From NCBI GenBank assembly GCA_013298025.1, contig JAAFJE010000004.1, positions 62,001 through 126,000 of the forward strand: DNA of 64,000 bases, written 5' to 3'. The stretch comes from Cytophagales bacterium. GTDB taxonomy: Bacteria > Bacteroidota > Bacteroidia > Cytophagales > Spirosomataceae. The notes beneath the pieces are model-generated. The model was given only the letters and a program-made list of their open reading frames with translations. It was not told where the DNA came from and ran no database searches. Position numbers and translations under genes: made by a program. Positions 25,801 through 43,912 of this stretch are shown here, piece by piece (the stretch's first letter is position 1; each line of letters opens with the position of its first letter).

Positions 25801-25998
25801 GGCATTGATTTTATAAAAGCCTTTTTGGTCAGTTACTGTACCCGTATTTGTGCCTTTGACCAAAACCGTTACACCGGGCAGTACATCGCCAGTTTCTTTG
25901 TCTTTCACTGTCCCTGTAACGCTTTTTATTTGAGCAAACAAGGAGGTTGATAAACTCAATAAAAAGTAAGTGATGATGTGTAATTTTTTGTTCTTCAT
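22825..25998 (-). CDS. SusC/RagA-family TonB-dependent transporter (SusC2)
   Basis: 1057 residues: signal peptide (MKNKKLHIITYFLLSLSTSL), carboxypeptidase-like domain (VTGTVKDKETGDVLPGVTV), TonB-box-like LAEVRVVGYGTQ, plug (VIRIRGVNSISL, LVVVDGIPI, IESIDVLKDAASTAIYGSRA) and a barrel ending FTLGVNIGF. There is no STN domain. The plug and many barrel segments parallel SusC1, so the two SusCD pairs look like duplicates now in different operons. It is fifth in the operon, 82 bases after the second DoxX-like gene; no convincing promoter was seen in that gap. Confidence 0.95.
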   Translation of the reverse strand: MKNKKLHIITYFLLSLSTSLFAQIKSVTGTVKDKETGDVLPGVTVLVKGTNTGTVTDQKGFYKINASEKATLVFSFIGYGSIEKAVGNQSIISIDLVQSNKELAEVRVVGYGTQTKAEFTGSAARVSGEAIKEQPIQSFDQALSGRAAGVSVASPNGVLNNPPVIRIRGVNSISLSSYPLVVVDGIPINTGNVSTSTAVPNNPLGDINPADIESIDVLKDAASTAIYGSRAAAGVLLITTKRGKAGKPRVNIESWTGVSDVVRLPKVLNAEQFIAIKNEAVLNAKILGGNANNDNVASALFFPNYDANNNPIDTRWYDYIYQTGTSQNHNVSVSGGTPSTSYYFSANYTDQKGFLVTNEFKRKSARFNIDQEITSWLKLKGSLSYNTSFNQSPYSGSLQNSNFFLVGAARLAIALPPNVAAYNADGTYNVNPASPNTIGVGNNKFVSNWGNPVALLNENRYTSENDRVIASFAAVAKLYKNLDFTTTYAIDRLRTDTYSYDSPIQGNGFSSRGNATNVSAVRDNWNWTSTLNYNTTFADKHNVSALLGYDIQKFNYNSWGASRTQSADPFFENYQGNWGAIAASNNDLSERAFLSFFSRLTYDYNKKYFLTFNFRRDGNSALGTGKKYGNFGGVSGGWAVSEEPFFKESSISNVLNNVKLRASWGRVGNGNLSDAYSSLELYSGSLYGSAATWAISQAGNANLGWETSDQTNIGADLALLNNRIQIELTYFNNDVNGLILSAPQAVSKGIPGNAILGNVGSMYNRGIELGITANVINKGAFSWNTSLNFTKLSNKVTALAEGNTDIIGTTHVSYETTNITRVGYSVGSLYGAKTAGVNPANGQRIFINAKGEQVQYSQVVLPGQSQWTYLDGTKAPAITGADYYLIGNALPTWYGGFSNNFKYGNFDLGINLSFSGGNYIMNGTRATLLDQRAYNNSTEILNRWQKPGDITDIPRLVYNDQLSSGSSFPVSTNAEKGDFLRLQNLSLGYRLPAALVSKIGASSIRVYGQGSNLFLLTGYTGTDPESSVNGNSNTTPGVEKNSVGQARTFTLGVNIGF

Positions 25999-26080
25999 GC
26001 GATTTTGTTATAAGAAGTGTTAAATAAATAAGGGATTTGAACTTGCTGAAATACAGCAAGCTCAAATCAAAAAATATAAT

Positions 26081-27748
26081 TTAGTTGTACTTACCCGCTT
26101 CCAAAGTACTTCTTGAAAGTGCGTATTTTTTGGTATATCTGTCTAAAGTAACATGGATAGAATCTTTGTTTTCGTCGATACCCGAAAGCAAAATTCTATT
26201 GCCGCCATTCAGTACAGTATATTTTAAAATCAAACGCTTGCGTTCGACTGGTTTGCTTTCAGCTTTGATACCTTTGGTTCTTCGTGCCGAGCGTGCAATT
26301 GGCTCTATTTTAGCATCTTCATCGCCAATGACAGCCAACGATTCTTTCGGAATCCAGTTGTCTGTTGCCTTTTCTGCTTTTGCTTTCTTTTTAGCCAATA
26401 CTTCTGGTGCATTTCCTTTCAAATTGAAATCCCCTCTGTTGCCTAAAAACTCACGGTTTTCGGCATTTCTTGCACCTCGGTTTTTATCTTGCAAATACAA
26501 AATCTTGCGTACTGTATCGGCTTCGTAATAAAATACCCTTTGTCCGCCTGCTACGCCTGTTAGCTCAAACGTTCGGTTGATGTCACGCATGGGTGCTCCG
26601 CCTCCGTTTGATAAATCCAGTTCCACAGGTTTATTTACTTTGAAGGTTAAGGTTGTCCATTTTTCAAACGTAGCCTGTTGCCAACGTGTGGTATCCAAAG
26701 GATTATAAGGCAAAACCTGTCCGTTTAATTTGAATTCCGTTACATGATAATTGCCACGCAAAGCAGCAATGCCTTTCTGAGCAGGTTGTTTGTAAGGGTC
26801 ATACAAGAAATTGACAACTGCCAAATACGTAAACACGGGCAAAAACAAGATGATAACAAAGCTTTTTAGACTGATGCGAGCAATGCGTTGCCAAGCTTTG
26901 TCAAAAGTTGGGTAAAAATGGAAAGGGATTGTCAGCTTTTCTTGAATTAAAAGTCTATACAAATCTGGAATATAGTCAATTAATAAAAAGGCTGAAAACA
27001 ACACAAAATAAGAGCTATACACGTGTACGCCACCATCATAGGCAAAGTTTACATACACAATGTCGGCTAACGCACCGAAGAGTAATACAGCTCCCCAAAA
27101 TGTAGTTACTCGGAAAAACAATAATGCTCCAGCAGCTACTTCAACCACACCCGTAAATACTTCGTACCAAGGCACAATACCGATAGAAAGCCAGTAAATT
27201 TTCTGCAAAGTCAAATCTCCAAAATTGGTATTCAGAACGCCCCATGACGGATAAGGTAATTGTGTGGGTGTGAGTTTGGTAAACCCAAAACCAATAATAC
27301 CGATACCAGCACGATAGCGTACCAATACTCTTAGCCAATAATTCAAAAGGTTGTATTCACGGGCTTCTTTTTTGGTAAAATAGGCAATCGCCGACCAGAT
27401 TCCCCCAACCACTACGGAAAAAATGAAGGTAATAATCCACACTGCATAGCCGTTGAGCGATGAGCCAAAAATTTTGTTACCAAAGAAATTTAAACCCGAA
27501 CCAAAACGAGCAATATCGTACAAATCTCGATAATGCAAATGCAACCAGTCGAAAGAGAAAATCTCTGTGTACCAGTCTAAAGTATTAGGAAAAGACATGG
27601 CAATAAAAAATACAAAAGCTATCCTAAAAAGGATTTTTTGCCACGGCTTCCATGCCTTTGGCGAAGCGATTTGAGACGCTTCTGATGAGTTTTCGGGCAA
27701 TTCAGTACCCAAATTCTCTTGTATTATGTTTAGATTTGAATTAGACAT
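26081..27748 (-). CDS. DoxX-like membrane protein with C-terminal domain and basic insertion (paralogue 2)
   Basis: 555 residues. The membrane part (residues about 30-330) parallels the other two DoxX-like proteins, including LNYWLRVLVRYRAGIGIIGF and NFGDLTLQKIYWLSIGIVPWYEV. The soluble domain has YHVTEFKLNGQVLPYNPLD and TTRWQQATFEKWTTLTFK. Unlike its paralogues, it carries an insertion of about 85 residues rich in Lys, Ala and Arg (KKKAKAEKATDNW, ARSARRTKGIKAESK) before the last strands (DSIHVTLDRYTKKYALS). It lies between the third DoxX-like gene and SusC2 in one operon. Function unknown. Confidence 0.75.
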   Translation of the reverse strand: MSNSNLNIIQENLGTELPENSSEASQIASPKAWKPWQKILFRIAFVFFIAMSFPNTLDWYTEIFSFDWLHLHYRDLYDIARFGSGLNFFGNKIFGSSLNGYAVWIITFIFSVVVGGIWSAIAYFTKKEAREYNLLNYWLRVLVRYRAGIGIIGFGFTKLTPTQLPYPSWGVLNTNFGDLTLQKIYWLSIGIVPWYEVFTGVVEVAAGALLFFRVTTFWGAVLLFGALADIVYVNFAYDGGVHVYSSYFVLFSAFLLIDYIPDLYRLLIQEKLTIPFHFYPTFDKAWQRIARISLKSFVIILFLPVFTYLAVVNFLYDPYKQPAQKGIAALRGNYHVTEFKLNGQVLPYNPLDTTRWQQATFEKWTTLTFKVNKPVELDLSNGGGAPMRDINRTFELTGVAGGQRVFYYEADTVRKILYLQDKNRGARNAENREFLGNRGDFNLKGNAPEVLAKKKAKAEKATDNWIPKESLAVIGDEDAKIEPIARSARRTKGIKAESKPVERKRLILKYTVLNGGNRILLSGIDENKDSIHVTLDRYTKKYALSRSTLEAGKYN

Positions 27749-27772
27749 CTTGATTAGAATTTATGGGATGAA

Positions 27773-29116
27773 TTACAATTTTAGCACACTTCTTCTACCC
27801 AATTTCTTGGCTTCAAAAGTCAAGTATTTTTTATTGATTTTATTCAAAACGGCATATACAGAATCACTTTGGGCATTTACACCCGACAAGACGATGGTTG
27901 AATCGTTAAGTTGTTTGAAGGATAAAATAAATTGGTCGTTTCGATGATTGACGTTCCGATTTTTTAGCGAAAGTATCGCTCGTGCGGTGTCTATCTTATA
28001 TTCATAATAATGACGACCCTGCGACCCTGCCAATTCGTAAATACGAGCGGAATCCTTTTCAAAGAGTTCTTCGCTTGGCAAATGCACCAGTTGTACAGGC
28101 TGATTGGATTTAATACTTATCGTATTCCATTTTTCAAAAACCACATTTTGCCAGCGTAAAGTATCTGTTTTAGAATAAGGAATGGTTTGGTTATTCCACT
28201 TAAATTCACTTACATTGTAAAGTCCTGCGGTATTGGCTAAACCCTTTTGGGCAGGGAAATGATAGCCTCCATCTTGGTAAGCTCCGTAGGTTTTTAGGCC
28301 ATACACTACCACAAAAAAGAGGATAAATACAGATTTTACTGCCAGCCGAATTTGTTTCCAATTGCCCTCAAAAACAGGTTGGAAAGTATTCGGAAGTGTG
28401 GGTTTTTCTAAAGAAAGTACATTGAAAAGCCGTATGGCATCAAAGGCAAAAAGGTAAAGAGCCAAAGCAACCAAATAAAAAGCATAGACGTATTCGCCGC
28501 CTTCGTAAGCAATGTTTGAAATGGCTACGTTTCCAGCAAAAGGTAAAATTATCAAAGTTGCAATGGTTGTGGTTTTTCGGTTGAGTAACAACAAACCGCC
28601 TACAATTTCGACCAACCCTAAAAAGGATTGATAACTTGGCACAACGCCCAAACCCAAAGAAAAGAGTTTCCAAGCCGTAAAATCACCATATTCTGTATTC
28701 AAATTGCTGATAGAAGGAATTGGCGACTGAATCGGGAAGAATTTCAAAAAACCATAAGCAATCACGCCTATCGCTAAACGATAACGCACCAATACTCTTA
28801 ACCAATAATATAACTTATCGTAATCAAGCTCTTTTTTGTAAAAAGTTTTGCCTAAAATCGTCCCGATAAGTGCCAATACCGCTATGATAAGCCAGTTAAT
28901 AAAACTACTTTCTCCGATAAAATCAGGGGCATATTTCGAGAGATAAAAAATATCTCGATAAGTCACCCCCAACCAATTGATAGAGAAAAGATGTTTGAAA
29001 AAAGAAATATCTAAAGGGAGTATTTGAAAAAAGAAATAAATACCAAAAAACTTAAATACCAGTTGTTCGGTTTTGGTCCATTCCCCTTGTGTTTCAATCG
29101 TTGGTACTTGTGCCAT
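27773..29116 (-). CDS. DoxX-like membrane protein with conserved C-terminal domain (paralogue 3)
   Basis: About 447 residues from MAQVPTIETQGEW; a start ten codons earlier is possible. Hydrophobic segments alternate as in paralogues 1 and 2 (FFGIYFFFQILPLDISFF, LYYWLRVLVRYRLAIGVIAYGFLKF). The soluble domain has YNVSEFKWNNQTIPYSKTD, RWQNVVFEKWNTISIK and DSVYAVLNKINKKYL. It lies 62 bases after SusD3 and 24 bases before paralogue 2, so two copies stand in tandem. This supports a role tied to the SusCD systems, perhaps as a pair. Confidence 0.75.
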   Translation of the reverse strand: MAQVPTIETQGEWTKTEQLVFKFFGIYFFFQILPLDISFFKHLFSINWLGVTYRDIFYLSKYAPDFIGESSFINWLIIAVLALIGTILGKTFYKKELDYDKLYYWLRVLVRYRLAIGVIAYGFLKFFPIQSPIPSISNLNTEYGDFTAWKLFSLGLGVVPSYQSFLGLVEIVGGLLLLNRKTTTIATLIILPFAGNVAISNIAYEGGEYVYAFYLVALALYLFAFDAIRLFNVLSLEKPTLPNTFQPVFEGNWKQIRLAVKSVFILFFVVVYGLKTYGAYQDGGYHFPAQKGLANTAGLYNVSEFKWNNQTIPYSKTDTLRWQNVVFEKWNTISIKSNQPVQLVHLPSEELFEKDSARIYELAGSQGRHYYEYKIDTARAILSLKNRNVNHRNDQFILSFKQLNDSTIVLSGVNAQSDSVYAVLNKINKKYLTFEAKKLGRRSVLKL

Positions 29117-29178
29117 TGTATTCGTTGATTTAAAGGTTTTATACAAGGCTATCTATTTGATAACCTTGTATATAAGAA

Positions 29179-30516
29179 TTAATATCCTTGATTTTGAACC
29201 AATGATTTATCAATCAATAATTCACCTGCTGGAATAGGCAACACCAATCTATTGGCATCAGTCAAGTTGAAAACCTGTGCCGCCCGTCCCGTTCTTACAA
29301 TATCGTACCAGCGATGTGGTTCTAAGGCAAACTCTACTCTTCTTTCGTTTTCAATCGCCAATAGTACTGCCGAAGTACTTGCGGCAGTGCTTGCAGCAAC
29401 ACCAGCACGGTCACGCACGGCATTCAAATCAGCCAAAGCGTCTGTTAGTTTATCTTGGTTGGCTCTGGCTTCGGCACGAATCAAGTACAATTCTGCAATA
29501 CGAATAATGTAACTTGGGTCTGAAGCAGGAGTACGATAATAGAGGTTTCCATACCAACGGTTTTGATTGTCTTTGGCTACCAACGTACTGCGAGTACCAC
29601 CAATCGTTGGGTCGTTCAACAAGGCTACGATAGCATCGTTAGGAGCCCATTGGCGAGTACCTCCGTTGGTTTGTGGTTGCCATTGGTTGCGGTGTGTGTT
29701 GGGTTCGTTGGCACTATAAAATATTTCAAAAACAGATTCTTGTGTACCTCTGGCATCGTTGGCAAAGAAAGTATTGAAAGGTTTCAAAAGGCGGTAGTTG
29801 GTGTCTGTCAATAACTTAGTAGCATATTCTTCGGCTTTTGCCCATTCTTTTTGATACAAATGATAACGAGCACGCAAAGCCCAAACCGTTTTGCGTGTGG
29901 CTCTATAACGGTCGGTTGTTAAAGGCAAAAGAGGTTCGGCCGCATCCAAGTCTTTCAATACTTGTGCATACGTTTCAGCCTGTGTACTTCTGCCAATGCC
30001 TCTATTTTCTGTTGGACTTGCCGTTGGTTTTGTAACAATTGGTACACCTCCCCAAGTACGAGCTAAATCAAAATACGCCAAAGCTCTAATAAAATAAGCC
30101 TCACCAATGATTTGATTTTTAAGCGTTTCTGTCAATAATGGGTCTGTTACGGTTGGCACTTTGGCTAATACATTGTTGGCTCTATTGATGGTGACATAAA
30201 TCGCCGTCCAAGCACCTGCAATGGTCGAATTATCAGCATTTACTTTTTTATTGATAAACTCCTGTACTTGCGACTGCGAGCCTGTCCACTGAATATTATC
30301 ACCCGATAAATAGCCAATCGACTGGAAGGTTGTACCATAGTAATTACCACTGGCAAGTGCCGAATATACCCCTCTGATAGCTGTTTCAGAAGAAGCTTTA
30401 TCGTAAATCGTTTGTGTGTCGGAGATAGATTCTAAAGGCTTCACATCCAGATAATCTGCACATGAAGACAATAAAGCTACTATTCCTATTGAATATATAT
30501 ATTTTAATGCTCTCAT
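29179..30516 (-). CDS. SusD/RagB-family outer-membrane lipoprotein (SusD3)
   Basis: 445 residues from MRALKYIYSIGIVALLSSC, with the lipidated Cys at 19; the longer in-frame start was rejected. SusD features are AYFIRALAYFDLARTWGGVPIV, YAQVLKDLDAAEPLLP, AYIIRIAELYLIRAEA-type helices near the C-terminus, NERRVEFALEPHRWYDIVRTG and a final VLPIPAGEL segment. It is of the standard RagB/SusD type and less similar to SusD1 and SusD2 than they are to each other. It follows SusC3 by 51 bases. Confidence 0.95.
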   Translation of the reverse strand: MRALKYIYSIGIVALLSSCADYLDVKPLESISDTQTIYDKASSETAIRGVYSALASGNYYGTTFQSIGYLSGDNIQWTGSQSQVQEFINKKVNADNSTIAGAWTAIYVTINRANNVLAKVPTVTDPLLTETLKNQIIGEAYFIRALAYFDLARTWGGVPIVTKPTASPTENRGIGRSTQAETYAQVLKDLDAAEPLLPLTTDRYRATRKTVWALRARYHLYQKEWAKAEEYATKLLTDTNYRLLKPFNTFFANDARGTQESVFEIFYSANEPNTHRNQWQPQTNGGTRQWAPNDAIVALLNDPTIGGTRSTLVAKDNQNRWYGNLYYRTPASDPSYIIRIAELYLIRAEARANQDKLTDALADLNAVRDRAGVAASTAASTSAVLLAIENERRVEFALEPHRWYDIVRTGRAAQVFNLTDANRLVLPIPAGELLIDKSLVQNQGY

Positions 30517-30567
30517 TTTCCTAAATTTTAAATGATTCTTTTCCAAATAATCTTTATACGGTTTGCT

Positions 30568-33500
30568 TTAGAAAGTAATATTAAAGCCTGCTTGGAAACT
30601 ACGTGGCTGAGGTGGAGTTCCTAAATCAATCCCTTGTGCGTTTTGGTCGCTACTTGCACTTGATTCAGGGTCAAGACCCGTGTAGTTGGTAATTAGGAAT
30701 AAATTTGTGCCATTTACATATACCTTGAAGGCTTCTGCTCCCAATTTTTTCGCAAATGCTTTGGGTAAATTATAGGCTATGTTCAACGAACGAAGACGTA
30801 GAAACGAACCATCTTCCAACCATCTGCTGCCACCGTCACGATAGTTATTGACATTCACGCCATCGGGACGAGGAACGTCGGTAATATCGCCTGGTTTTTG
30901 CCATCTTGCCAAATTACTGGCTAAAATGACACGAGCCGCATCTCTTGCTCCGCCACCTTCACCAAAGAATCTGTTGTGGTTATAAATTTTGTTTCCGTAT
31001 TGAAATGCCAAAAATGCTGATACTTCAAAGCCTTTATAACTAAAATTATTGGTGAGTCCTCCGAAGAATTTGGGCCAAATACTGCCTACAATCTGGCGGT
31101 CGGCAACGGTAATTTGTCCGTCTTTGTTGACATCTTCATACACAGCATTGCCCGTTTGTGGGTCAACGTACAATTGTTTATACACCCAGAAAGAATACAA
31201 GGGCGTGCCTTGTTGCTGTAAAATCAAATCACGGCTTCCGTATTTAAGCGGAGCTTCTAATTTTTCAATATTATTGATGTTCTGAGCAAGATTGAAACTT
31301 GAAGTCCAAACAAAATTTCTTCCTTGAATATTTGTCGTATTGATGTTTAGTTCAAAACCTTTGTTACTGATTTCAGCGGCATTACTCCAATAATTCGCAA
31401 AACCAGTTGTGCTTGGTAAAGCCAATTGTAATAGCCCATCACGAGTATATTTCGTATAGTAATTCAATTCAAACGCTACTCTTCCATTCCACAGAGCAGC
31501 ATCTACACCCACATTAAATTGATTGGTTCTTTCCCATTTTAAGTCAGGGTTTGCCAATTGTTGTGGAGCAATGCCTGCACTTCCTTGGTAAGACGCTCCG
31601 CCTGTCCAAAGCCCTTGTGCGGCAAAGTTTCCAATGCCATTTTGGTTTCCTACAATACCATAACTTGCTTTGAGTTTGAGGTCTGATAAAACAGCAACAT
31701 CTCTTAAAAAGCTTTCTTGTTTCACTCTCCAGGCCGCACCTACTGCGGGGAAATACCCCCATTTTCTATCAGAACCAAAGCGAGAAGAGCCATCAGCACG
31801 TACACTTACATTGAATAAGTATTTGTTATCGTAGCTATAATCTGCTTTGGCAAAAAATGAAGCTAAATTACTTTTACTCCAGCTTTGTGTACTGGTGGTC
31901 GTAGCTGCCGAAGAAATAATCGTAAATGAATTATTAGCAAAACCTCTACCTTCTGCGTAAGTTCTTGTTAGAACATCACTTTGTAAAGTATTACCAACTA
32001 CCGCTCCAAAGGAATGCTTTTCTCCAATTTTTTGACGATAAGTAAGCGTCTGTTCATTTAATAAAGAAGAAAACTGCGTAATGGAAGAAGTAGCCAAACC
32101 ACCTTGAGCACCCAACAACAAGAAAGTATTCCAGTACTCCGATTCGTTGTAATTGTTGTAGTCAACGCCCCAACTTGAACGAAATTTCAGATTTGGTAAT
32201 AAATAAGCCTCGGCGTAAAGATTACCAATGTAACGTAAACTGGTTGAGTGAACATCGTAATTTTCTAACAAAAGTGTTAGGTTATCAAAACCTGCACGTC
32301 CTACTAAAACGCCTTGTTCGTTATAAGGCGATAAATACGTAGGTGTATGCAAGGCAGCCTGTAATAAACCTCCTTGCGGGCCATCGCCTGCACGTGCCTG
32401 ATTACGATACGTTCTTGTGAAAGAATTGCTTACGCCTATTTGTACTTTATCGTTGATTTTTTGGTCAAGATTTACTTTGAAGCTTGCTCTATTGAATGTA
32501 ATCGGTTTCAGAATGGCTTCTTGTGAATTAAACCCGCCACCAATATAATATTTCGTTGTTTTCGTACCGCCCGTCAGCGATACATCATAGCTTTGAAGCG
32601 TAGCTGTACGGAAAGCTTCGCTGAGGCGGTCGTAGGTTTTTTGTTCTTCTGGCAAGCCTCTACCACCTTCTGAAACAGGTCTGAAAGGACGATTGGCAAC
32701 AGTTCTGTTCAACGAAGGCGTGTCTTTTCCTGTATTAATCCACCATTCGTTTACTAATTGAGCGTGTTCTGGTCCAGTGGTCAACTCCCACAATTTTGCG
32801 GCTTTTGCTTGTCCGAAACTGGCGTTGATGTTTACTTTGGGTGCTTGTTCAAAATTCCCCCTTTTGGTCGAAATCAAAATAACACCATTCGCCCCTCTTG
32901 AACCATATAGTGCTGTGGCTTCGGCATCTTTCAATACTTCAATACTCTGAATGTCAGCAGGATTTAAGTCGGCAATTGGTGAAGTAGCCTTTCCGCCTGT
33001 ACCAATGGTTTGAAGACTGTTGCTGTTGATAAATACGCCATCTATCACATAAAGCGGGTCGTTATCGGCGTTGATAGAAGTAGCCCCACGTACCCTTACA
33101 TTAACAGCCTCGCCCGGAACACCCGTAGCCGAAGAAATTTGTACACCAGCTACTTTGCCTTGTAACTGTGCATCAATACTTCCTACTGGAATACTACTTA
33201 CTTCGCTTGGATTTACCTTTGTGATTGAACCAATCAGATTTTTACGTTCTTGCGTGCCATAACCTACTACGACAATCTCACTTAATTCTTTGTTGTTAGC
33301 TCTAAGTTGAATGTCAATGTTATTCGTTTTTGCTACTACTTCTTTGGTATCATAACCAACCGAACTAATGATTAAAGTATAAGGCAATTTTTGCCCTGTT
33401 TTAAAATAAAACCTACCTTCTGAGTCAGACAAAACACCGTGAGTAGTTCCTTTAATTTTGATAGAAGCACCTATGATGGGTTCTCTCGAACTTTCATCTA

Positions 33501-33612
33501 CTATTGTTCCTGAAAGATTTGAGTTAATTGTTGCATTCGTATTTTGAGCCAAAACCCCATAAGGAATCAGCAAAATACCAAGCAAAAATTGCATTAGTAA
33601 TTTTTTTTTCAT
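30568..33612 (-). CDS. SusC/RagA-family TonB-dependent transporter (SusC3)
   Basis: 1014 residues: signal peptide (MKKKLLMQFLLGILLIPYGV), carboxypeptidase-like domain (LSGTIVDESSREPIIGASI), TonB-box-like LSEIVVVGYGTQ, plug (NVRVRGATSINADNDPLYVI, IQSIEVLKDAEATALYGSRG) and a barrel ending FQAGFNITF. There is no STN domain. It is the first gene of the eight-gene block that ends at the DUF1684 terminator. The leader is about 170 bases, with a good promoter, a repeated operator-like sequence at the start site and an antisense terminator-like hairpin. Confidence 0.95.
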   Translation of the reverse strand: MKKKLLMQFLLGILLIPYGVLAQNTNATINSNLSGTIVDESSREPIIGASIKIKGTTHGVLSDSEGRFYFKTGQKLPYTLIISSVGYDTKEVVAKTNNIDIQLRANNKELSEIVVVGYGTQERKNLIGSITKVNPSEVSSIPVGSIDAQLQGKVAGVQISSATGVPGEAVNVRVRGATSINADNDPLYVIDGVFINSNSLQTIGTGGKATSPIADLNPADIQSIEVLKDAEATALYGSRGANGVILISTKRGNFEQAPKVNINASFGQAKAAKLWELTTGPEHAQLVNEWWINTGKDTPSLNRTVANRPFRPVSEGGRGLPEEQKTYDRLSEAFRTATLQSYDVSLTGGTKTTKYYIGGGFNSQEAILKPITFNRASFKVNLDQKINDKVQIGVSNSFTRTYRNQARAGDGPQGGLLQAALHTPTYLSPYNEQGVLVGRAGFDNLTLLLENYDVHSTSLRYIGNLYAEAYLLPNLKFRSSWGVDYNNYNESEYWNTFLLLGAQGGLATSSITQFSSLLNEQTLTYRQKIGEKHSFGAVVGNTLQSDVLTRTYAEGRGFANNSFTIISSAATTTSTQSWSKSNLASFFAKADYSYDNKYLFNVSVRADGSSRFGSDRKWGYFPAVGAAWRVKQESFLRDVAVLSDLKLKASYGIVGNQNGIGNFAAQGLWTGGASYQGSAGIAPQQLANPDLKWERTNQFNVGVDAALWNGRVAFELNYYTKYTRDGLLQLALPSTTGFANYWSNAAEISNKGFELNINTTNIQGRNFVWTSSFNLAQNINNIEKLEAPLKYGSRDLILQQQGTPLYSFWVYKQLYVDPQTGNAVYEDVNKDGQITVADRQIVGSIWPKFFGGLTNNFSYKGFEVSAFLAFQYGNKIYNHNRFFGEGGGARDAARVILASNLARWQKPGDITDVPRPDGVNVNNYRDGGSRWLEDGSFLRLRSLNIAYNLPKAFAKKLGAEAFKVYVNGTNLFLITNYTGLDPESSASSDQNAQGIDLGTPPQPRSFQAGFNITF

Positions 33613-33706
33613 TTACTTTGTGTTGGTTTTAAATTAACAATAAGGTCTTGGGCGTATTGCACTGCATACACCTAAATCATTCCACAATGAGCCTTTTTTA
33701 TAACCA

Positions 33707-33739
33707 GCCATTCCTGTTCCAGCAAGAATGGCCTTTTTT
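33707..33739 (+). terminator. Intrinsic terminator, plus-strand orientation, in the susC3 leader
   Basis: The stem GCCATTC/GAATGGC, extended inside by CTG/CAG, is followed by CTTTTTT on the plus strand. No plus-strand gene precedes it: upstream on that strand are the susC3 start codon and leader. It therefore fits the end of a short RNA antisense to the susC3 ribosome-binding region. Confidence 0.6.
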
Positions 33740-33758
33740 GATAGTTTTATTTCTATAA

Positions 33759-33785
33759 AGACTATATAGTATATAGACTATATAG
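33759..33785. repeat. Tandem operator-like repeat at the susC3 transcription start
   Basis: AGACTATATAG occurs twice, 16 bases apart (start to start), and the spacer continues the TATA-rich pattern. It overlaps the expected start of transcription just downstream of the -7 element, where a repressor could act. Confidence 0.5.
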
Positions 33786-33787
33786 GG

Positions 33788-33819
33788 CAAATTTAAGATT
33801 GAATTTTGGTACTAACAAA
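33788..33819 (-). promoter_or_regulatory. Promoter of the SusC3-to-DUF1684 operon
   Basis: On the minus strand TTTG and TAAATTTG (TAnnTTTG) are separated by 20 bases, a full match to the Bacteroidota sigma-ABfr consensus. The predicted transcription start is about 170 bases before the SusC3 ATG. Confidence 0.65.
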
Positions 33820-33981
33820 TTTTTTGGTAAAATCCATAGATTATTATAAAAAATCATTGGAATAGTATAAAATACTTATATAAAAAGGTTGTTATAATTA
33901 GTTCTAAACTTAGGTTTAAATGCTACGTAAACCATTCATATTCATTTAGTCTTGTATGAAAGTTTTCGAGTTATGTTAGTT

Positions 33982-34025
33982 GCCAACGCCTCATGTCATC
34001 AAAAGCTAGAACATGAGGCGTTGGC
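33982..34025 (-). terminator. Hairpin after metH
   Basis: A perfect 15-bp stem (GCCAACGCCTCATGT/ACATGAGGCGTTGGC) with a 14-base loop begins 5 bases after the metH stop. It lacks a U-run, like several other hairpins in this window, but its place fits a 3'-end structure. Confidence 0.65.
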
Positions 34026-34030
34026 GGGTG

Positions 34031-37000
34031 TTACGCATCATAATTCAACACAGGGGCAAGCCATTTTTCGGCGGTTGCCAAGTCCATGCCTTTGCGTTGG
34101 GCGTAATCTTCTACTTGGTCTTTGGCGATTTTGCCTAGTCCGAAATACTTCGCTGCTGGGTTTGAAAAATACCATCCCGAAACCGAACTTGCTGGGTACA
34201 TGGCAAAGCTTTCCGTAAGCGTAATGCCGATTTGTTCGGCTTGAAGTAATTGGAATAAGGTTGCTTTTTCGGTATGGTCTGGACAAGCCGGATAGCCCGG
34301 TGCTGGACGAATCCCTTGATATACCTCGTCGATTAGCTCTTCGTTGCTGTAAGTTTCGTTGGCGGCATAACCCCAATATTCTTTTCTCACTTTTTCGTGC
34401 ATCAATTCGGCAAATGCCTCCGCCAAACGGTCGGCGATGGCTTTAAGCATGATGCTGTTGTAGTCGTCGTGGTCTTTTTCGTATTGTTCCAACAACGCTT
34501 CGATGCCAATACCTGCGGTTACGGCAAACGCTCCGATATAGTCTTCCTTTCCTGTGCTTTCGGGTGCAACAAAGTCGGACAAACACAAATTGGGCAAATG
34601 GGCCGCTTTTTGTCCTTGTTGACGCAAGTGGTGCAGCACCGTAGGCGTACTTTCTACCAATTGACCTTCGCTATCGACAGCCGTATGGCTCAATATGCGG
34701 TAGCCTTCACCTTTGAGCGAGCCTTGGCCTGCTTTGTCGTATTGGTATTTCTCAAAAGGATGCAATACGATGTCGTCTTCTACCGAATTGGCAGGGTAAA
34801 AGCCAATGACGGCACGGGCTTTGAGCGTTTTCTCTTTGATAACTTTTGCCAACATGGCTTGGGCATCGGCATATAATTTGCGTGCTTCCGAGCCAATGAT
34901 TTCGTTGTCGAAAATCTTTGGATATTTACCCGATAACTGCCAAGTAGAAAAGAAGGGTGTCCAGTCGATGTATTTTGCAATTTCTGCCAAATCGTACTCT
35001 TCAAAAATCTTCGTTCCTAAGAAACTTGGTTTATGTGCCTGAAAAATAGTCCAATCAATAGGTGCTTTTTTGTTGCGAGCCTCCTTGATGCTGAGGTAGT
35101 TTTTATCTCGTTTGCGTCCAGCGTGTTCTTCTCTCAGGCGTGCATATTCGGTTTTGATTTCTTGGTAAATCTCTTCGTGTGTTTGCTCATTTTGCATCAA
35201 TCTGCCTGCCACAGGCACAGAGCGAGAAGCATCTAAAACGTGGATAACCGGCCCCGAATAATGGGGGTCGATTTTTACGGCTGTATGGATGCGTGAAGTG
35301 GTAGCACCGCCAATCAACAACGGCACGGTAAAGCCTTGTCGCTCCATTTCTTTGGCTACGCCCACCATTTCATCTAACGAAGGTGTAATCAGACCCGAAA
35401 GCCCAATAATATCTACTTGGTGTTCTTTGGCGGCGGCCAAGATTTTATCGGTAGCCACCATTACGCCCAAGTCCACCACTTCGTAGTTGTTGCAACCCAA
35501 TACTACGCCTACAATATTTTTACCGATGTCATGCACATCGCCTTTAACGGTAGCCAACAAGATTTTACCTGCACTCGAACTTTCGCCGCCTGCTTTTTCG
35601 GCTTCGATGTAGGGCAATAAATAGGCTACTGCTTTTTTCATCACACGAGCCGATTTTACTACTTGTGGTAAAAACATTTTGCCTTCGCCAAACAAATCGC
35701 CCACAACGTTCATGCCGTCCATCAATGGCCCTTCTATGACGTGCAATGGCTTCGCTACTTGCTGGCGTGCTTCTTCTACGTCTTGGTCGATAAACTCGGT
35801 AAGACCTTTGATAAGGGCGTGTTCGAGGCGTTTGTTTACGGGCAATTGTCGCCACGCATTATCTACGACTTGTTCTTTGCCTTTCGATTTTACGGTTTCG
35901 GCAAACGTAACAAGGCGTTCGGTTGAGTCGGCACGGCGGTTGAGTAGTACATCTTCGCATAGCTCTAGCATATCTTTGGGAATATCGTTGTAAACTCCAA
36001 GCTGACTGGCGTTTACAATGCCCATGTCCATACCTGCCTTGATGGCGTGGTACAAAAACACCGTGTGCATGGCTTCACGCACGGGTTCGTTTCCTCTGAA
36101 AGAAAAGGAGATATTCGACACCCCACCCGAAACTTTGGCATGAGGCAAGTTTTCTTTTATCCAGCGTGTAGCATTGATAAAGTCGATGGCGTAATTGTTG
36201 TGTTCTTCAATCCCTGTAGCGACCGTCAAGATATTGGGGTCGAAAATGATGTCTTGCGGAGGAAAATGAACTTCGTCCACCAAAATACGGTAGGCTCTGG
36301 TACAAATCTCAACCCTGCGTTCATACGAATCGGCTTGGCCTTTTTCGTCGAAAGCCATTACTACAGCCGCCGCACCGTAGCGTTTTACTTTCTCGGCTGT
36401 TTCTTTAAATTTTTCTTCTCCTTCTTTTAATGAAATAGAGTTGACAATAGATTTTCCTTGCACACATTTCAAACCTGCTTCAATCACTTCCCATTTCGAC
36501 GAGTCTATCATAATAGGCAAACGGGCAATGTCAGGCTCGGCCATCAACAGATTCAAAAAGGTAGTCATGGCTTGCACGCCATCAATCATTCCTTCGTCCA
36601 TGTTTACGTCTATCACCTGTGCACCGCCATCTACTTGCTCACGTGCCACGGCAATGGCTTCATCGTATTTGTTTTCACGAATCAATCGGGCAAATTTTTT
36701 CGAGCCTGTTACATTACAACGCTCACCCACATTGACGAAGTTGGTGGCTTGGGTAATTTTCAAAGGTTCTAATCCCGAAAGCTTTTGAATAGGTTCTATG
36801 GCTGGAATTTCCCTTGGTTTGTATCGGGCGGCTACGTCGGCAATGGCTTTGATGTGTGCTGGCGTAGTTCCGCAACAGCCCCCGATGATATTGATAAAAC
36901 TATGGGTTAAAAAGTCTTCTACAATCACCGCCATTTGTTCGGGTGTTTGGTCGTATTCGCCCATTTCGTTGGGCAAACCAGCATTGGGGTGAGCCGACAC

Positions 37001-37801
37001 CATGAAGGGCGCTTCTTCTGCCAAAATTTTTACATACGGACGCATCAAGTCTGCCCCTAAAGCACAGTTTAAGCCAATCGAAAGCAAGGGCAAATGCGAA
37101 ACCGAGGTCAAAAAGGCTTCGGTGGTTTGTCCCGAAAGGGTACGCCCCGAAGCGTCGGTGATTGTACCCGAAACCATGATAGGCAAATAGGGCTTTTCGG
37201 GATTGTTTTTATAGAATAAATCAATCGCAAACAACGCTGCTTTGGCATTGAGCGTATCGAAAATGGTTTCTACTAAAAAGGCATCTACACCGCCATCGAC
37301 CAACCCCCTGATTTGTTCGGTGTAGGCTTCTACCAATTCATCAAACGTCACTGCCCTAAAACCGGGGTCGTTTACGTCGGGTGAAAGTGAAAGGGTACGG
37401 TTGGTTGGGCCAATAGAGCCTGCCACAAAGCGGGGTCTTTCAGGATTTTGGGCTGTAAATTCGTCGGCAACTTCTCTGGCGATTTTGGCAGCATAGTAGT
37501 TCAAATCATACACATATTCTTCCATGTGGTAATCGGCCATTGCAATAGAAGTGGACGAAAAAGTATTGGTTTCGGCAATGTCGGCACCTGCTTCAAAATA
37601 TTTGGCATGAATCTCTTTGATTACATCGGGACGAGTAATCGAAAGCATATCGTTGTTGCCTTTTACTTCGTGCGGAAAATCTTTGAATTGTTCGCCTCGA
37701 TAATCGGCATCGGTCAATTTATATTGCTGAATCAATGAACCCATTGCTCCATCTAGTACAAGGATTCTTTCTTTTAAAATTTCACGAATATTCGGACGCA
37801 T
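34031..37801 (-). CDS. metH: Cobalamin-dependent methionine synthase
   Basis: 1256 residues, the full-length MetH form. The order of domains is: homocysteine S-methyltransferase (about 1-330; zinc cysteines in GLNCALG and GGCCGTTP), pterin-binding domain (about 350-620; [18 protein letters not shown]), B12 cap and binding domains (about 650-900; [14 protein letters not shown] gives the lower-ligand His, then GLSGLITPS and LLIGGATTS), and the AdoMet-dependent reactivation domain (about 930-1250; YYFGYPA-type region and ending near [21 protein letters not shown]). It transfers methyl from methyltetrahydrofolate to homocysteine in the cytoplasm. It is a single-gene unit, divergent from an Lrp/AsnC regulator. 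No cobalamin riboswitch is visible in the roughly 60-base leader. Confidence 0.98.
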
Positions 37802-37865
37802 CAGTTTCTTGGTTATGTTTTATCGTGGTAAGTGGAGGTGCTACTGCGTAGCAAAATTCCGCCTG

Positions 37866-37873
37866 CAAAGTTA
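37866..37873 (-). promoter_or_regulatory. Predicted -7 element of metH
   Basis: TAACTTTG on the minus strand matches TAnnTTTG. A spaced TTTG is not evident upstream. It lies in the divergent region shared with the Lrp/AsnC gene, so that regulator may control it. Confidence 0.4.
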
Positions 37874-38003
37874 CAAGCAAAAGATAATATTTATTATGTC
37901 TATTGATTAAATTAGATGTATTATCTTTATAAATATATATTTTAGATTTTTTATCTTAAATATGGTATATTTGAATAAATATTTTGATGAAACACTGCTA
38001 TTT

Positions 38004-38462
38004 ATGAAACTCGATTCGATAGACAAAGCCATTTTAAGACATTTGCAAGCCGATGCGCATCTTACCACCAAGGAGTTATCTAGTCGCTTGAATTTATCGC
38101 CTACGCCTGTATATGAGCGTGTGCGTCGTTTAGAAAAAGAGGGCGTTATCAAAGGCTATGTAGCCTTGATAGACCGAGAAAAAGTAGAGAAAGATTTGAT
38201 GGTTTTTTGTAATATTCGCTTGAAAGAACACGCCCAAGAAGCAGGAGCGAGGTTTGTGCATGAGGTGGTAAAATTAGATGAAGTAATGGAGTGCTTCAAT
38301 ATTTCGGGCGAATATGACTTTATGCTAAAGATTGTCGTAAAAGATATGCGTGAATACCAAGCTTTTTTGATGAACAAACTCGCCTCGCTTGCCAATATCG
38401 GTAGTACGCATAGCACTTTTGTGATGAGTGAAATAAAGGTAAAAACAGCGTTGGAGATTTAA
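38004..38462 (+). CDS. Lrp/AsnC-family transcriptional regulator
   Basis: 152 residues from MKLDSIDKAILRHLQADAHL; the preceding in-frame ATG would add 14 residues of no family character. A winged helix-turn-helix occupies residues about 5-55 (TTKELSSRLNLSPTPVYERVRRLEKEGVI gives the recognition helix). An effector/oligomerisation (RAM) domain follows (SGEYDFMLKIVVKDMREYQ). Such proteins sense amino acids, often Leu or Met-related compounds. It is transcribed away from metH and the two share an AT-rich control region, so it may regulate itself and metH. The pairing is seen; the regulation is inference. Confidence 0.92.
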   Translation: MKLDSIDKAILRHLQADAHLTTKELSSRLNLSPTPVYERVRRLEKEGVIKGYVALIDREKVEKDLMVFCNIRLKEHAQEAGARFVHEVVKLDEVMECFNISGEYDFMLKIVVKDMREYQAFLMNKLASLANIGSTHSTFVMSEIKVKTALEI

Positions 38463-38466
38463 GGGG

Positions 38467-38539
38467 ATTTGAAGATTTGGTAATTTGAAGATTTGGTAAT
38501 TTGAAGATTTGAAAATTTGAAGATGTGGAGATTTGAAAA
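38467..38539 (+). repeat. 16-bp tandem repeat, about 4.5 copies
   Basis: ATTTGAAGATTTGGTA is repeated head to tail. Copies 1 and 2 are identical, copies 3 and 4 vary at their ends, and a 9-base remnant follows. It starts 4 bases after the stop codon of the Lrp/AsnC gene and is noncoding. Confidence 0.85.
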
Positions 38540-38593
38540 TGGGTGATGAAAACTCACTCACTAATTCACAACTCATTAACTCACAATTTTTTA

Positions 38594-38631
38594 ATTGCGG
38601 AGCTAGGGTAAACGCCTCTTTGCTCCGCAAT
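38594..38631. terminator. Convergent hairpin between the regulator and the YpdA-like gene
   Basis: A 10-bp stem (ATTGCGGAGC/GCTCCGCAAT) with an 18-base loop lies between two convergent genes, 20 bases from the stop of the YpdA-like gene. No long U-tract is present on either strand. Confidence 0.55.
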
Positions 38632-38650
38632 CAATATTTGTACTTGTGTT

Positions 38651-39616
38651 TTATGAAATAGATTTGATTTTAGCCATGATTTTTTTAGCATGAATCCTTG
38701 AATTTTCGATAAAAAGTGAGTGCGTATTCATGCCTCCACAAATGACTCCTGCCAAATACATATTCTTCAAATTGGTTTCCTGTGTCGATTCGTCGTATTG
38801 TGGCTTGCGTTGGGCATCTGGCGATAATTGTACGCCAATTTTCTCTAAAAAAGCAAGGTTAGGTTGGTAGCCTGTCATGGCAATTACATAATCGTTTGGT
38901 ATGGTTACGATGCCTTCTGGCGTTTGAATATCAACTTCATACAGACGAATCGCTGCTACTTCGCTTTGAAAAAAGGCTTTTATCGACCCCTCGGCAATGC
39001 GGTTTTCGATGTCGGGTTTGGCCCAATATTTTACCCGATGCCCGATACCTTCGCCTCTAATCACCATCGTAACTTCTGCTCCTTTACGCCACGTTTCTAA
39101 AGCGGCATCAACGGCAGAGTTGTTTGCCCCTACGACCAATACTTTTTGCATGGCATAAAAATGGGGTTCTTGGTAATAGTGCGTTACTTTGGGTAAATTT
39201 TCACCCGTAACATTCATGTTGAAAGGAATGTCATAAAAGCCCGTCGCTATCACGATATGCGTAGCCGTATATTGGGCTTTGTTGGTTTGTACCACATATT
39301 GCTCTTCTTGAGGGTAAATATGTTCGACGGCTTCAAACAACTGAATATTGAGTTTTCGGTGTAAAGCGACACGCCGATAATACTCTAGTGCCTCACTGCG
39401 TGTAGGTTTGGCATTGTTTGAAACAAAAGGCACATCGCCAATTTCTAAGCGTTCGGAAGTGCTAAAAAAAGTCATGTTGGCAGGGTAGTGGTACAAAGAG
39501 TTGACCAAACAGCCCTTTTCAAGAATGAGATAAGACAAGCCCGCCTCTTGTGCTTCTAAGCCACAGGCCAATCCGATAGGGCCAGCGCCCACAATAATAC
39601 TATCGTAATGCTTCAT
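38651..39616 (-). CDS. ypdA: YpdA-family FAD-dependent pyridine nucleotide-disulfide reductase
   Basis: 321 residues with the YpdA/Bdr pattern: FAD-binding GAGPIGLACGLEA at residues 10-22, LILEKGCLVNSLYHYPANMTFFS, NAD(P)H-binding VLVVGANNSAVDAALE, then an ATG segment (VIAMTGYQPN) and NMYLAGVICGGMNTHSLFIEN. In Firmicutes YpdA reduces bacillithiol disulfide; many Bacteroidota also make bacillithiol, so that role is likely but not shown here. It overlaps the preceding transglutaminase-like gene by 4 bases (ATGA type), so the two are probably translationally coupled. Confidence 0.88.
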   Translation of the reverse strand: MKHYDSIIVGAGPIGLACGLEAQEAGLSYLILEKGCLVNSLYHYPANMTFFSTSERLEIGDVPFVSNNAKPTRSEALEYYRRVALHRKLNIQLFEAVEHIYPQEEQYVVQTNKAQYTATHIVIATGFYDIPFNMNVTGENLPKVTHYYQEPHFYAMQKVLVVGANNSAVDAALETWRKGAEVTMVIRGEGIGHRVKYWAKPDIENRIAEGSIKAFFQSEVAAIRLYEVDIQTPEGIVTIPNDYVIAMTGYQPNLAFLEKIGVQLSPDAQRKPQYDESTQETNLKNMYLAGVICGGMNTHSLFIENSRIHAKKIMAKIKSIS

Positions 39617-40665
39617 TTTTTTGCTTTACTGAGTGCCGTATAATATTGGTTCATTCTCGCACGGTCTTTTTGAATCCCTTCGAGATTTAAGAAAATAACC
39701 CGTTTGTTTTCTTCTACACCCTTGACAGGTGCTTCGGGGGCTATACGATTATAATAAGTGAGAGCAATATTTAGTTCCTCTTCGGCTTGTTTTAATAAGT
39801 CATATAGCTTGTCACGGTAAGTTAAGGCTACTTTTTGTTGGGCTGTCATGACTTTTTCTGTGCGTATAACGTGCAACAATCGGGTGTATTGTTGCAACAA
39901 CTGCGTAGAACGCATGGCATAATGAAAGCCCAGTGTATTATTGGCGGTATAATTTTGGGCATCATACTGTAAAATACGGCGTTGGGTATTGAGCAACCTG
40001 CCTACAGAATCGAGCTGCTCGAATGCCTGCAAGAGGCTATCTTTGGCAAATTTGGTACGAGTTGTAAAAGGAGGACCTTGTACAAAGTCTTTTGCCGTAA
40101 TAATAGCATCGCTCAATTGCCAAAGGGGGTCATACGGATAATGGTATTGTAAAAATGTACTAGGTTTCGACAAAAAAAAGAAACGATTGGGTTTCTGATA
40201 AAATTGGTCGTGCAGTACTATGCCTGCACTCCAAGTGAGGTCGGCAAGGTACCATGTTTGATGAATTTTCACGGCATTCCAAGCGTGGTCTTCTATTTTG
40301 GTGCGGGTATCTTGTGGGAACTCGTTGGCTTGTACTTTTCCTAGTCCTTCTACAATACACACTTCTATGCCAGCAGCCCTACATAAATCATAAAACAAAT
40401 TGGCATAACCACCGCATATTGCTTTTCTTTCTTGTAAAACAACGGCACTTGTTTGCGAGTTGCCCAAGGTAGCTGTGGGCAACCGTTCGTTGTAGGCGTT
40501 TACATCGTAATAAATATGTTGGGTAATCCAGTCGAAAATGGCTATTACTTTAAGCGAGTCATTCGACTGGTGAGCCGTCAGTTGCCTAGCTAAAACCTCA
40601 ACAGGGGTTTGGGTATAAGCAGGCATCCATCCAAACATACAGAAGTAAAAGAAAAGTGATTTCAT
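39613..40665 (-). CDS. Exported transglutaminase-like (kyphoscoliosis-type) protein
   Basis: 350 residues from MKSLFFYFCMFGWMPAYTQ, a signal peptide; the start seven codons upstream was rejected. The papain-like triad is visible: Cys84 in KAICGGYANLFYDLC, His127 in IEDHAWNAVK and Asp142 in YLADLTWSAG. The C-terminal 150 residues are helical (HVIRTEKVMTAQQKVALTYR). Such domains cleave or crosslink peptides and proteins, or act on cell-wall peptides. It overlaps the YpdA-like gene, but no functional link is evident. Confidence 0.82.
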   Translation of the reverse strand: MKSLFFYFCMFGWMPAYTQTPVEVLARQLTAHQSNDSLKVIAIFDWITQHIYYDVNAYNERLPTATLGNSQTSAVVLQERKAICGGYANLFYDLCRAAGIEVCIVEGLGKVQANEFPQDTRTKIEDHAWNAVKIHQTWYLADLTWSAGIVLHDQFYQKPNRFFFLSKPSTFLQYHYPYDPLWQLSDAIITAKDFVQGPPFTTRTKFAKDSLLQAFEQLDSVGRLLNTQRRILQYDAQNYTANNTLGFHYAMRSTQLLQQYTRLLHVIRTEKVMTAQQKVALTYRDKLYDLLKQAEEELNIALTYYNRIAPEAPVKGVEENKRVIFLNLEGIQKDRARMNQYYTALSKAKK

Positions 40666-40726
40666 CCACAATTGATTATTGGTCAAAGTTCATTGGTTGC
40701 GTATGAGGCTGATTATATAACTAAGT

Positions 40727-40758
40727 TTTGACTGTTTACGAAAATCATGATATATTTA
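40727..40758 (+). promoter_or_regulatory. Predicted promoter of the exported hypothetical gene
   Basis: TTTG, 20 bases, TATATTTA: seven of eight -7 positions match TAnnTTTG. The leader would be about 40 bases. Confidence 0.45.
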
Positions 40759-40801
40759 GTATAGACTTTATATTTTCACTAGCATATACCTCAAATAAAT
40801 C

Positions 40802-41554
40802 ATGAAAAAGAACATTTTTGCCATTGTATTGTTGCTGTTCATCGTCAAACAGCCTTATTTGTTTGCTCAAGCCGTCATGCAAGAAAGCCTAAAAGACCGT
40901 TTCAGAGAAGCGGGAGGACTGAACGTCAATACCAGTGCTATAGGCACAATATATGGCTTTGATAATTCTACCTCAGAAGTATTAGGCTCAACTTATTTAA
41001 CCGAAGAGTGGACCAAAGCCAATATTAAGTTTTATCCTCGTGTTATCCAAACACTCAAAGGAAGTGTTAAACTAGATTCGGTTGTAGGCGTGATGAGCCG
41101 TATCAATCTTAAACAGCACTTTGTAGAGATTAAAGTAGATAACCAAAATAAGTACATTGATGCCGATTGGATTCAAAGTGTTTCTTTTCCTCAGAAAACA
41201 TTTGTAAATGTACGAGATTTTACCTTTGAAAAACTCAACAAAGGCTTTATTGAAGTAATCACTACAGGCAAATATGGCTTATATCTCTGGCATCAAATCT
41301 CTATCAAGAAACCCGATTATTCTCCCGCCTTGAATACTGGCTCAAAAGATGCCAAGGTAATTCATGACATCAGAACATTGCTTGCTTTTGATAAGCAGCT
41401 TTACATACTTTCAGGAAAAAAGACTTTTGAAGAGATTTTAGGTAGCAAAATAGAGGCTGTGGCAAAATATGTAAAAGAAAATGATTTGTCATTTAAAGAT
41501 AAAGAACTTGATAAACTTATATTGCTTGTTTCATACCTTAATCAAAATTATTGA
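40802..41554 (+). CDS. Exported protein of unknown function
   Basis: 250 residues with a clear signal peptide (MKKNIFAIVLLLFIVKQPYLF, cleavage after FAQ). The mature part has alternating beta strands (GLYLWHQISIKKPDYSP) and a helical C-terminus rich in Lys and Asp (KIEAVAKYVKENDLSFKDKE). No domain was recognised. The strand pattern, with a YIDADWIQSVSF segment, is like small uncharacterised secreted proteins frequent in Bacteroidota. It is monocistronic, with its own predicted promoter. Confidence 0.7.
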   Translation: MKKNIFAIVLLLFIVKQPYLFAQAVMQESLKDRFREAGGLNVNTSAIGTIYGFDNSTSEVLGSTYLTEEWTKANIKFYPRVIQTLKGSVKLDSVVGVMSRINLKQHFVEIKVDNQNKYIDADWIQSVSFPQKTFVNVRDFTFEKLNKGFIEVITTGKYGLYLWHQISIKKPDYSPALNTGSKDAKVIHDIRTLLAFDKQLYILSGKKTFEEILGSKIEAVAKYVKENDLSFKDKELDKLILLVSYLNQNY

Positions 41555-41645
41555 TTGTAAGGTCTATGGAATGTAAAATAGTGTGAGTTTTTGTAGTTTA
41601 CACCTATAAATCTACACTTTTAGTAGAAAACCTTAGTAAGGTCAT

Positions 41646-41675
41646 TTTGTGATGCAAACAGATTTCTTACCTTTG
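41646..41675 (+). promoter_or_regulatory. Promoter of the VOC-family gene
   Basis: TTTG, 18 bases, TACCTTTG, an exact TAnnTTTG match. The start codon follows 29 bases after the -7 element. Confidence 0.6.
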
Positions 41676-41704
41676 TTTTTCACATTATTCGTCCAATACT
41701 ATCT

Positions 41705-42169
41705 ATGAAAATTACTTACAAAAGTGCCTTGACCTTGCTGGCTCTGACTGGTTTGTGGTACAATGCCCAAGCACAAAATGCACCCAAAGGCATCAATATT
41801 GTATCGTACAACCATGTGGGTTTAGCGGTGAAAGATTTGAAAGAAAGTGCTACTTTTTACCGAGAAATCTTGGGGTTAAGTCCTGTAAATGTGCCAGATA
41901 ACCTCTTGGCTATTCGCCGTTGGTTTCAAATTGCACCGGGGCAAGAACTGCATTTGTTGCTTGGTCGCAAAGACCCCGTGAGTAATAACGACAAAAATGC
42001 TGCACATTTTTCACTCAGTATTCCTAGCAACTCAGCCGACCAAGTGGAGGCTTTTCTTAAAAGTAAAGGTGTGCCATATCATCGGCAACAACGCTTTGAT
42101 GGGGCGTATCAGATTTATGTTACCGACCCCGATGGCTATGTCATAGAACTCAACGAGCCTAAAAAATAA
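41705..42169 (+). CDS. Exported VOC (glyoxalase-like) family protein
   Basis: 154 residues with a signal peptide (MKITYKSALTLLALTGLWYN, cleavage near AQAQ) and one vicinal-oxygen-chelate module pair. Likely metal ligands are His37 (YNHVGLAV), His83 (ELHLLL), His101 (AAHFSLSIP) and Glu148 (YVIELNEP). The glyoxalase/dioxygenase fold is convincing. Export is unusual, because most glyoxalase-like proteins are cytoplasmic. The reaction cannot be predicted. It stands alone under its own promoter, followed by a perfect hairpin. Confidence 0.85.
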   Translation: MKITYKSALTLLALTGLWYNAQAQNAPKGINIVSYNHVGLAVKDLKESATFYREILGLSPVNVPDNLLAIRRWFQIAPGQELHLLLGRKDPVSNNDKNAAHFSLSIPSNSADQVEAFLKSKGVPYHRQQRFDGAYQIYVTDPDGYVIELNEPKK

Positions 42170-42190
42170 AGGTATAGAAGAGAAACTTTT

Positions 42191-42215
42191 GCTATCGGGT
42201 TTAAAACCCGATAGC
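42191..42215. terminator. Perfect hairpin between convergent genes
   Basis: A 10-bp stem (GCTATCGGGT/ACCCGATAGC) with the loop TTAAA lies just after the VOC-family stop codon and before the convergent small gene. It has no U-run. Confidence 0.6.
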
Positions 42216-42240
42216 GTGAAAGATAACCAGCAATGTACGT

Positions 42241-42582: not shown

Positions 42583-42607
42583 AATGCTATTGCAGAGATA
42601 GAATGAA

Positions 42608-42638
42608 GGTACTGTACAAAAGCGTTTCGTACAGTACC
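42608..42638 (-). terminator. Perfect hairpin after the outer-membrane protein gene
   Basis: A 10-bp palindromic stem (GGTACTGTAC/GTACAGTACC) with an 11-base loop lies 16 bases after the stop of the beta-barrel gene and before the small acidic gene. Confidence 0.5.
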
Positions 42639-42654
42639 AGCGTGTCATGCTTGC

Positions 42655-43698: not shown

Positions 43699-43912
43699 AC
43701 ATTCAGAAAATAACAGTTTATGAAGGCGTTAGGCAGGTTCAAAGAAGGGTTCTATTTCCTCAATAAACCGCTATAACGACCGATTTTACTTAGTTGTTTT
43801 ATATGAATACTTCAATAAAAATCAAATCAGCAACCTTGGAAAAGGATTCGTGCTGTGTACCTTTTGTTTAATTATTTTAAATTATTGAGTGAAGGCAATA
43901 TCATCGTTTTAC

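Follow-up and report, generated by a model that had tools for sequence, protein, structure and literature searches.

The window analysed here, a stretch of 64,000 nucleotides from a bacterium of the Cytophagales, carries the gene susC3 (positions 30568-33612, minus strand), which encodes a TonB-dependent receptor of the SusC/RagA type (TIGR04056, 821 bits) and whose start codon is the complement of positions 33610-33612. The next gene is susD3 (29179-30546, minus strand), followed at 26081-29146 by two proteins of 457 and 555 amino acids that match nothing in Pfam or NCBIfam; the same collections revealed no glycan enzyme among the four genes with which the operon begins. The order susC3-susD3 plus the same two proteins was kept in all 13 loci examined out of 76 loci of susC3 relatives, Chitinophaga and Mucilaginibacter included. 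A candidate promoter of susC3 itself, of the form TTTG-20-TAAATTTG, was located at 33788-33819 on the minus strand. This pattern has 2 matches in the window against 2.35 expected by chance; a looser form was found upstream of the antisense terminator in 14 of 77 relatives, compared with 1 of 77 for the opposite strand, seven doubtful loci being left out. A leader transcribed from this candidate promoter would measure about 170 nt and would include, in full, the sequence complementary to the antisense RNA described below. Two copies of ACTATATAG lie at 33761-33785, with the antisense terminator on one side and the candidate -7 element of susC3 on the other, and are a possible operator; TATAGA-type AT-rich stretches occur in the corresponding region of some relatives.

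On the plus strand of the susC3 leader, an antisense RNA is predicted at 33624-33739, its 5' end being placed from a -7-like promoter element and the covariance model spanning 33621-33739. The predicted length of 116-119 nt, including the RNA's own terminator, is within the range of DonS-type RNAs (78-128 nt). The predicted fold consists of a three-way junction (33642-33695, closing stem 33642-33646/33691-33695) with a variable hairpin at about 33648-33675 and a constant hairpin at 33677-33690, and of an intrinsic terminator (33707-33739) made of a hairpin (33707-33732) with one internal mismatch, a C and six T (33734-33739). The initial annotation had already placed a plus-strand intrinsic terminator in this leader, and folding of 33622-33740 indeed shows the hairpin, with a z of -2.45 and 2 of 200 shuffles as good; the body of the RNA without the terminator reaches a z of -1.33 only. 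A strict scan for consensus terminators missed the hairpin 33707-33732, and a general scan of 24000-43900 returned 26 terminators against 19.1 in shuffles (sd 4.0), little above chance.

The main sigma factor of the Bacteroidota uses TAnnTTTG and TTG as its -7 and -33 elements. The -7-like element TTACTTTG (33613-33620, plus strand) adjoins the susC3 start codon and differs from TAnnTTTG at one base, and ATTG (33588-33591, plus strand) precedes it with 21 bases between them, exactly as first annotated. As a functional -33 part, the ATTG did not survive the comparison: no conserved -33 element was found among 76 distinct sequences, of which 2 have a TTG as far from the start codon as in the window, 8 have one at 19-21 nt and 6 have one at -19. 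Seven doubtful loci were left out of this count, and the base after the start codon is constant in it because only starts followed by T (CATT) were taken. At the receptors of the same genome, T[AT]nnTTTG lies at the start codon in 11 of the 16 with an antisense terminator and in 4 of the 65 without (P 3.7e-7); when the two members of the RNA family are excluded, exact TAnnTTTG is present in 8 of 14 versus 1 of 65. With a start 4-6 bases past the -7 element, the RNA would overlap the leader from about -12 upward and would not reach the start codon. A transcript of about 110 bases over the ribosome-binding region had been proposed; the length stands, with about 115 nt predicted, but the start codon would be left uncovered.

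Comparison of the leader by BLASTN with 59 genomes (the own genome and 58 relatives) gave strong matches at four places outside the own genome, in G003, G030 (two) and G001. The window and these four places have in common CATTTAnTTTG at a susC-type start, a body that branches and a hairpin with five or more T behind it, and the five sequences were used to build a covariance model, R1. Searched through the family, R1 had matches in 54 of 222 genomes and 13 of 36 genera at E<=0.1; at E<=1e-4 there were 31 genomes from 9 genera, a count that includes the four seed genomes. Since the other 191 family genomes have no R1 match at E<=1e-4, and 38 of 73 leaders of susC3 relatives have no antisense terminator, the RNA is not universal for the susC3 operon.

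The place of the RNA is rather constant where it does occur. At E<=1e-5, R1 revealed 28 further places in the family. In 26 of them an in-frame ATG of a SusC gene lies 7-9 nt away, the identity of the SusC proteins to that of the window being as low as 30%; the other two are L106, where the SusC start is 411 nt away, and L082, close to the end of a contig. From the first base of the model to the nearest in-frame SusC ATG we counted 6-9 nt in 74 of the 97 locus entries with SusC nearby (five places being entered twice), compared with 4.6% for random positions. A SusC homologue on the opposite strand lies near the RNA at 57 of 69 loci in the R1 set and 40 of 42 in the R2 set described below; the 12 loci of the R1 set without one are L082, the model seed L107 and ten weak matches (22-32 bits). 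As the SusC proteins are 29-100% identical to that of the window, conservation of the RNA is more than that of a conserved flank. In Emticicia, the copies L107 (G030) and L106 (G155) stand at short ORFs (82 and 63 codons) instead of susC, with similar starts (MKKSVK.. and MKKNVK..), and in G155 a gene similar to susC2 begins 411 nt from the RNA copy.

A second covariance model, R2, was built from 44 sequences. Within the order it gave matches at E<=0.01 in 30 of 390 genomes, 29 of them in the family of the window and the remaining one without SusC; across the phylum it matched in 17 of 395 genomes, 12 of which belong to genus g151 of another family and carry 1-3 copies each. A search of the 948,550 bases that make up the 76 named loci of susC3 relatives gave 25 matches at E<=0.003, every one of them antisense at a susC start, and they come from Emticicia, Aquirufa, Runella, Flectobacillus, Rudanella, Spirosoma, Chitinophaga and two further records; seven matches are from Chitinophaga, of the Chitinophagales, one is from an unassigned Cytophagaceae MAG and one is from a record labelled Flavobacterium. 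This last label (L182, Flavobacterium sp. SUN052, an 8.1-Mb genome) may be wrong, as its susC3 and RNA are Spirosoma-like. In the Bacteroidales, R2 matched in 2 of 295 genomes at E<=0.1, both weakly, over about 60 nt with about 36 bits; the one Bacteroidales genome considered as a positive control has only 17 plug domains. Some copies are doubtful, namely the g149 loci L252 and L254 (offset 13) and the g32 loci L122, L123, L129, L130, L236, L237 and L239 (offsets 15, 22-23 and 89), and L238 and L253 were rejected as terminator-like only. A search of the window against Rfam 15 gave no match at the gathering score, and the RNA region of 16 loci did not reach it either; the best of four sub-gathering matches in the window (E<=5), SprX at 33685-33807 (25.1 bits against a gathering score of 80, E 0.0041), was taken as chance. 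A SAM riboswitch (50.2 bits) was observed at L096:2285-2381, downstream of the RNA on the same strand.

The window itself holds a second copy of the RNA, on the plus strand at the start of susC1 (7946-8068; E 4.4e-5 with a model built without that copy). The longest ORF of susC1 begins at 8004; within the region 7936-8004, the usual distance of the RNA puts the start codon at 7938, such that the gene is given as 4753-7938 on the minus strand. An amidohydrolase is encoded in the susC1 operon. Two further matches in the own genome, C4:138168 (29.5 bits) and C52:165383 (22.3 bits), were discarded as false, with no adjacent SusC.

We then asked whether the fold is conserved and on which strand. 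In the model-fitted alignment of the 44 sequences, 92.0% of the cells pair compared with 74.4% in shuffles, 290 cells are double-changed compared with 85 (sd 9), and 31 of the 37 pairs changed on both sides compared with 23.5. The same helices are possible on both strands, so the fold could in principle belong to the leader of the susC3 mRNA, as a riboswitch, an attenuator or a protein site, with the antisense features as its mirror image. The strand test was made on a structure-free MAFFT alignment, with the 44 sequences thinned to 27 non-redundant ones (<85% identity); pairs were predicted separately for each strand, and the base combinations in them were counted. There were 32 G-U and 2 A-C on the antisense strand, and 2 G-U and 23 A-C on the sense strand. 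Folding energy was lower on the antisense strand in 26 of the 27; the sense strand also beats its shuffles, with a mean z of -3.05 against -4.87 for the antisense strand. In the antisense direction, 43 of the 44 sequences have a T-run where the RNA ends, with four or more T among six bases. Further loci of the family (12 non-redundant of 15, L221 among the 15 duplicating a place already in the strand test) agree, with 20 G-U and 0 A-C on the antisense strand and 0 G-U and 8 A-C on the sense strand. The loop of the terminator stays near UUGCCGC or UUCCAGC across genera while its stem varies.

Genus g151 taken alone (14 non-redundant) gives a mixed picture: its consensus fold is better there (-17.8 versus -14.7 antisense), and the helix in the body of the RNA is predicted on the sense strand only. 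That sense fold, including the extra helix, has 14 G-U, 11 A-C and 10 other combinations, and the antisense fold, which is the terminator only, has 5 G-U and 0 A-C; for g151 there is no clear answer as to the strand of the body. For the family as a whole, the fold is assigned to the antisense strand because of the G-U and A-C counts and the T-run. The same asymmetry and T-run counter a sense-strand riboswitch, which three conserved hairpins in the leader had suggested. Together with the 35:1 ratio of antisense to sense terminators in 73 relatives and the T[AT]nnTTTG that accompanies antisense terminators at start codons, they make an element of the mRNA leader an unlikely reading. A small protein on the plus strand was also rejected, as the reading frames vary in length and sequence among the 27 relatives. 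The comparison indicates that a folded RNA on the antisense strand is kept by selection. At the level of aligned sequences, we consider it demonstrated that a conserved, covarying fold, with base changes that fit the antisense strand, is fixed at susC starts.

Antisense terminators are also present at receptors beyond this family. The own genome has 82 receptor genes with a plug domain, 81 of them with an assignable start (L274 being the one without), and 16 of the 81 have an antisense terminator within 220 nt, compared with 4 for sense terminators and 0.4 in shuffles. In the leaders of susC3 relatives the counts are 35 of 73 for antisense, 1 for sense and 0.0 in shuffles, the 73 being the 76 loci minus L178, L216 and L220, which are cut off at the start. 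Both counts use shuffles that keep base content only and start codons set by a signal-peptide rule, some of which may be wrong; that of L271 looks misplaced. The RNA family described here covers only two of the 16 receptors. In the fourteen others (L047, L050, L058, L063, L065, L265, L266, L270, L271, L272, L280, L284, L286 and L299) the terminator lies 46-186 nt before the assigned start; eight have exact TAnnTTTG at the start codon, and eight are receptors starting MKK...IMRIT. Single-sequence folds of these leaders show hairpins and a terminator in each, and the z of the body is lower on the antisense strand in 10 of the 13 folded receptors and on the sense strand in L047, L058 and L280. 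The fourteen leaders are possibly a second antisense RNA family. Leaders of Mucilaginibacter (Sphingobacteriales) and Pedobacter also contain antisense terminators and have no R2 match at E<=0.1; the plan of an antisense terminator seems to outlast the sequence.

The reading of the locus as an antisense RNA, made in the initial annotation, is thus supported: position, predicted length, terminator and -7 element fit, and covariation and strand asymmetry were added to them. We regard it as likely that the plus strand at about 33624-33739 specifies a structured cis-antisense RNA, about 115 nt long, which acts as a repressor of the susC operon in the manner of DonS; its transcription, pairing, repressive effect and inducing condition are what we infer. 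RNA polymerase would start at TTACTTTG beside the susC3 start codon, transcribe the leader with the gene behind it and halt at the hairpin with its T-run. The RNA would fold into the three-way junction and the terminator and, given its complete complementarity to the stretch from about -12 to -127 of the susC3 leader, would most likely pair there, such that translation initiation would be blocked or the susC3-susD3 mRNA destabilised. It would be made when SusC3 is unwanted, and the transporter would stay low until wanted. That the fold is kept suggests a role that goes beyond complementarity, for instance in loops for the first contact, in stability or in binding a protein.

Alternatively, the act of transcription could be what matters, with the antisense polymerase colliding with the incoming one and the RNA as a by-product; the -7 element does sit at the start codon, and the candidate promoters of the two strands would point towards one another across about 160 bp. 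A by-product, however, would need neither covarying helices nor a terminator loop near-constant across genera, and we hold this interference to be improbable. That a terminator and a promoter-like string came together by chance and without function, as the z values of the window alone and the general terminator scan would allow, is very hard to reconcile with a place and fold conserved across genera and with the family matches, covariation, strand counts, leader terminators and susC offset.

Returning to the structured antisense RNA, we propose tentatively that it represents a class that guards TonB-dependent transporters across the Bacteroidota, in which about a fifth of the receptors here (16 of 81) may carry an RNA of their own. 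Because its three-way junction and terminator loop are kept, such an RNA would do more than supply a complementary strand. A protein may hold it, or it may have several susC mRNAs as targets in trans, as hinted by the Emticicia copies L106 and L107 without an adjoining susC.

DonS and the cis-antisense RNAs associated with polysaccharide utilisation loci (PULs) of Bacteroides were reportedly described by Cao et al. in 2016. Like these, the present RNA is encoded opposite the 5' end of a susC homologue, and it is predicted from sequence to have a length in their range and its own terminator. In Bacteroides, divergently encoded RNAs of 78-128 nt that are antisense to susC homologues lower the expression of the locus (PMC7366714), 32 PUL-associated antisense RNAs have been counted in B. 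thetaiotaomicron (PMC10994844), and DonS of B. fragilis represses its own PUL (PMC7366714, PMC10994844). Unlike them, the RNA described here is found in the Cytophagales, the Chitinophagales and one further family, and is one recognisable family of sequence and structure with a three-way junction. Compared with a DonS-type PUL, the susC3 operon has susC and susD and lacks a recognised glycan enzyme among its first four genes. The comparison with DonS that had been drawn for this locus is apt as an analogy; as for kinship, the search with R2 did not reveal it, giving the two weak matches in the 295 Bacteroidales genomes.

FopS of Bacteroides pairs near the start codon of susC mRNAs, blocks translation and ends in a rho-independent terminator (PMC11697453). 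It shares with the present RNA the small size, the tie to the susC start region and the type of terminator; it differs in its length of about 65-70 nt, its action in trans on several targets and its single-stranded 5' seed (PMC11697453). The present RNA is longer, branched and encoded opposite its presumed target, and does not fit that description. Flavobacterium psychrophilum also makes antisense RNAs (PMC9723704), and the part of that report covered does not describe among them a conserved family at susC starts. Searches of the open-access literature turned up, outside Bacteroides, no account of a conserved family of antisense RNAs at susC starts; the reports of antisense control at susC in the literature covered all concern Bacteroides. 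The family described here, its fold kept across genera and orders and its members lying mostly 6-9 nt from susC starts, is on this ground probably old and functional, and its distribution suggests a widespread, undescribed switch for nutrient uptake. The covariance model lets such RNAs be annotated elsewhere, and it opens to test the way in which environmental Bacteroidota select from their large sets of transporters, of which the 82 plug-domain receptors in the own genome are an example.
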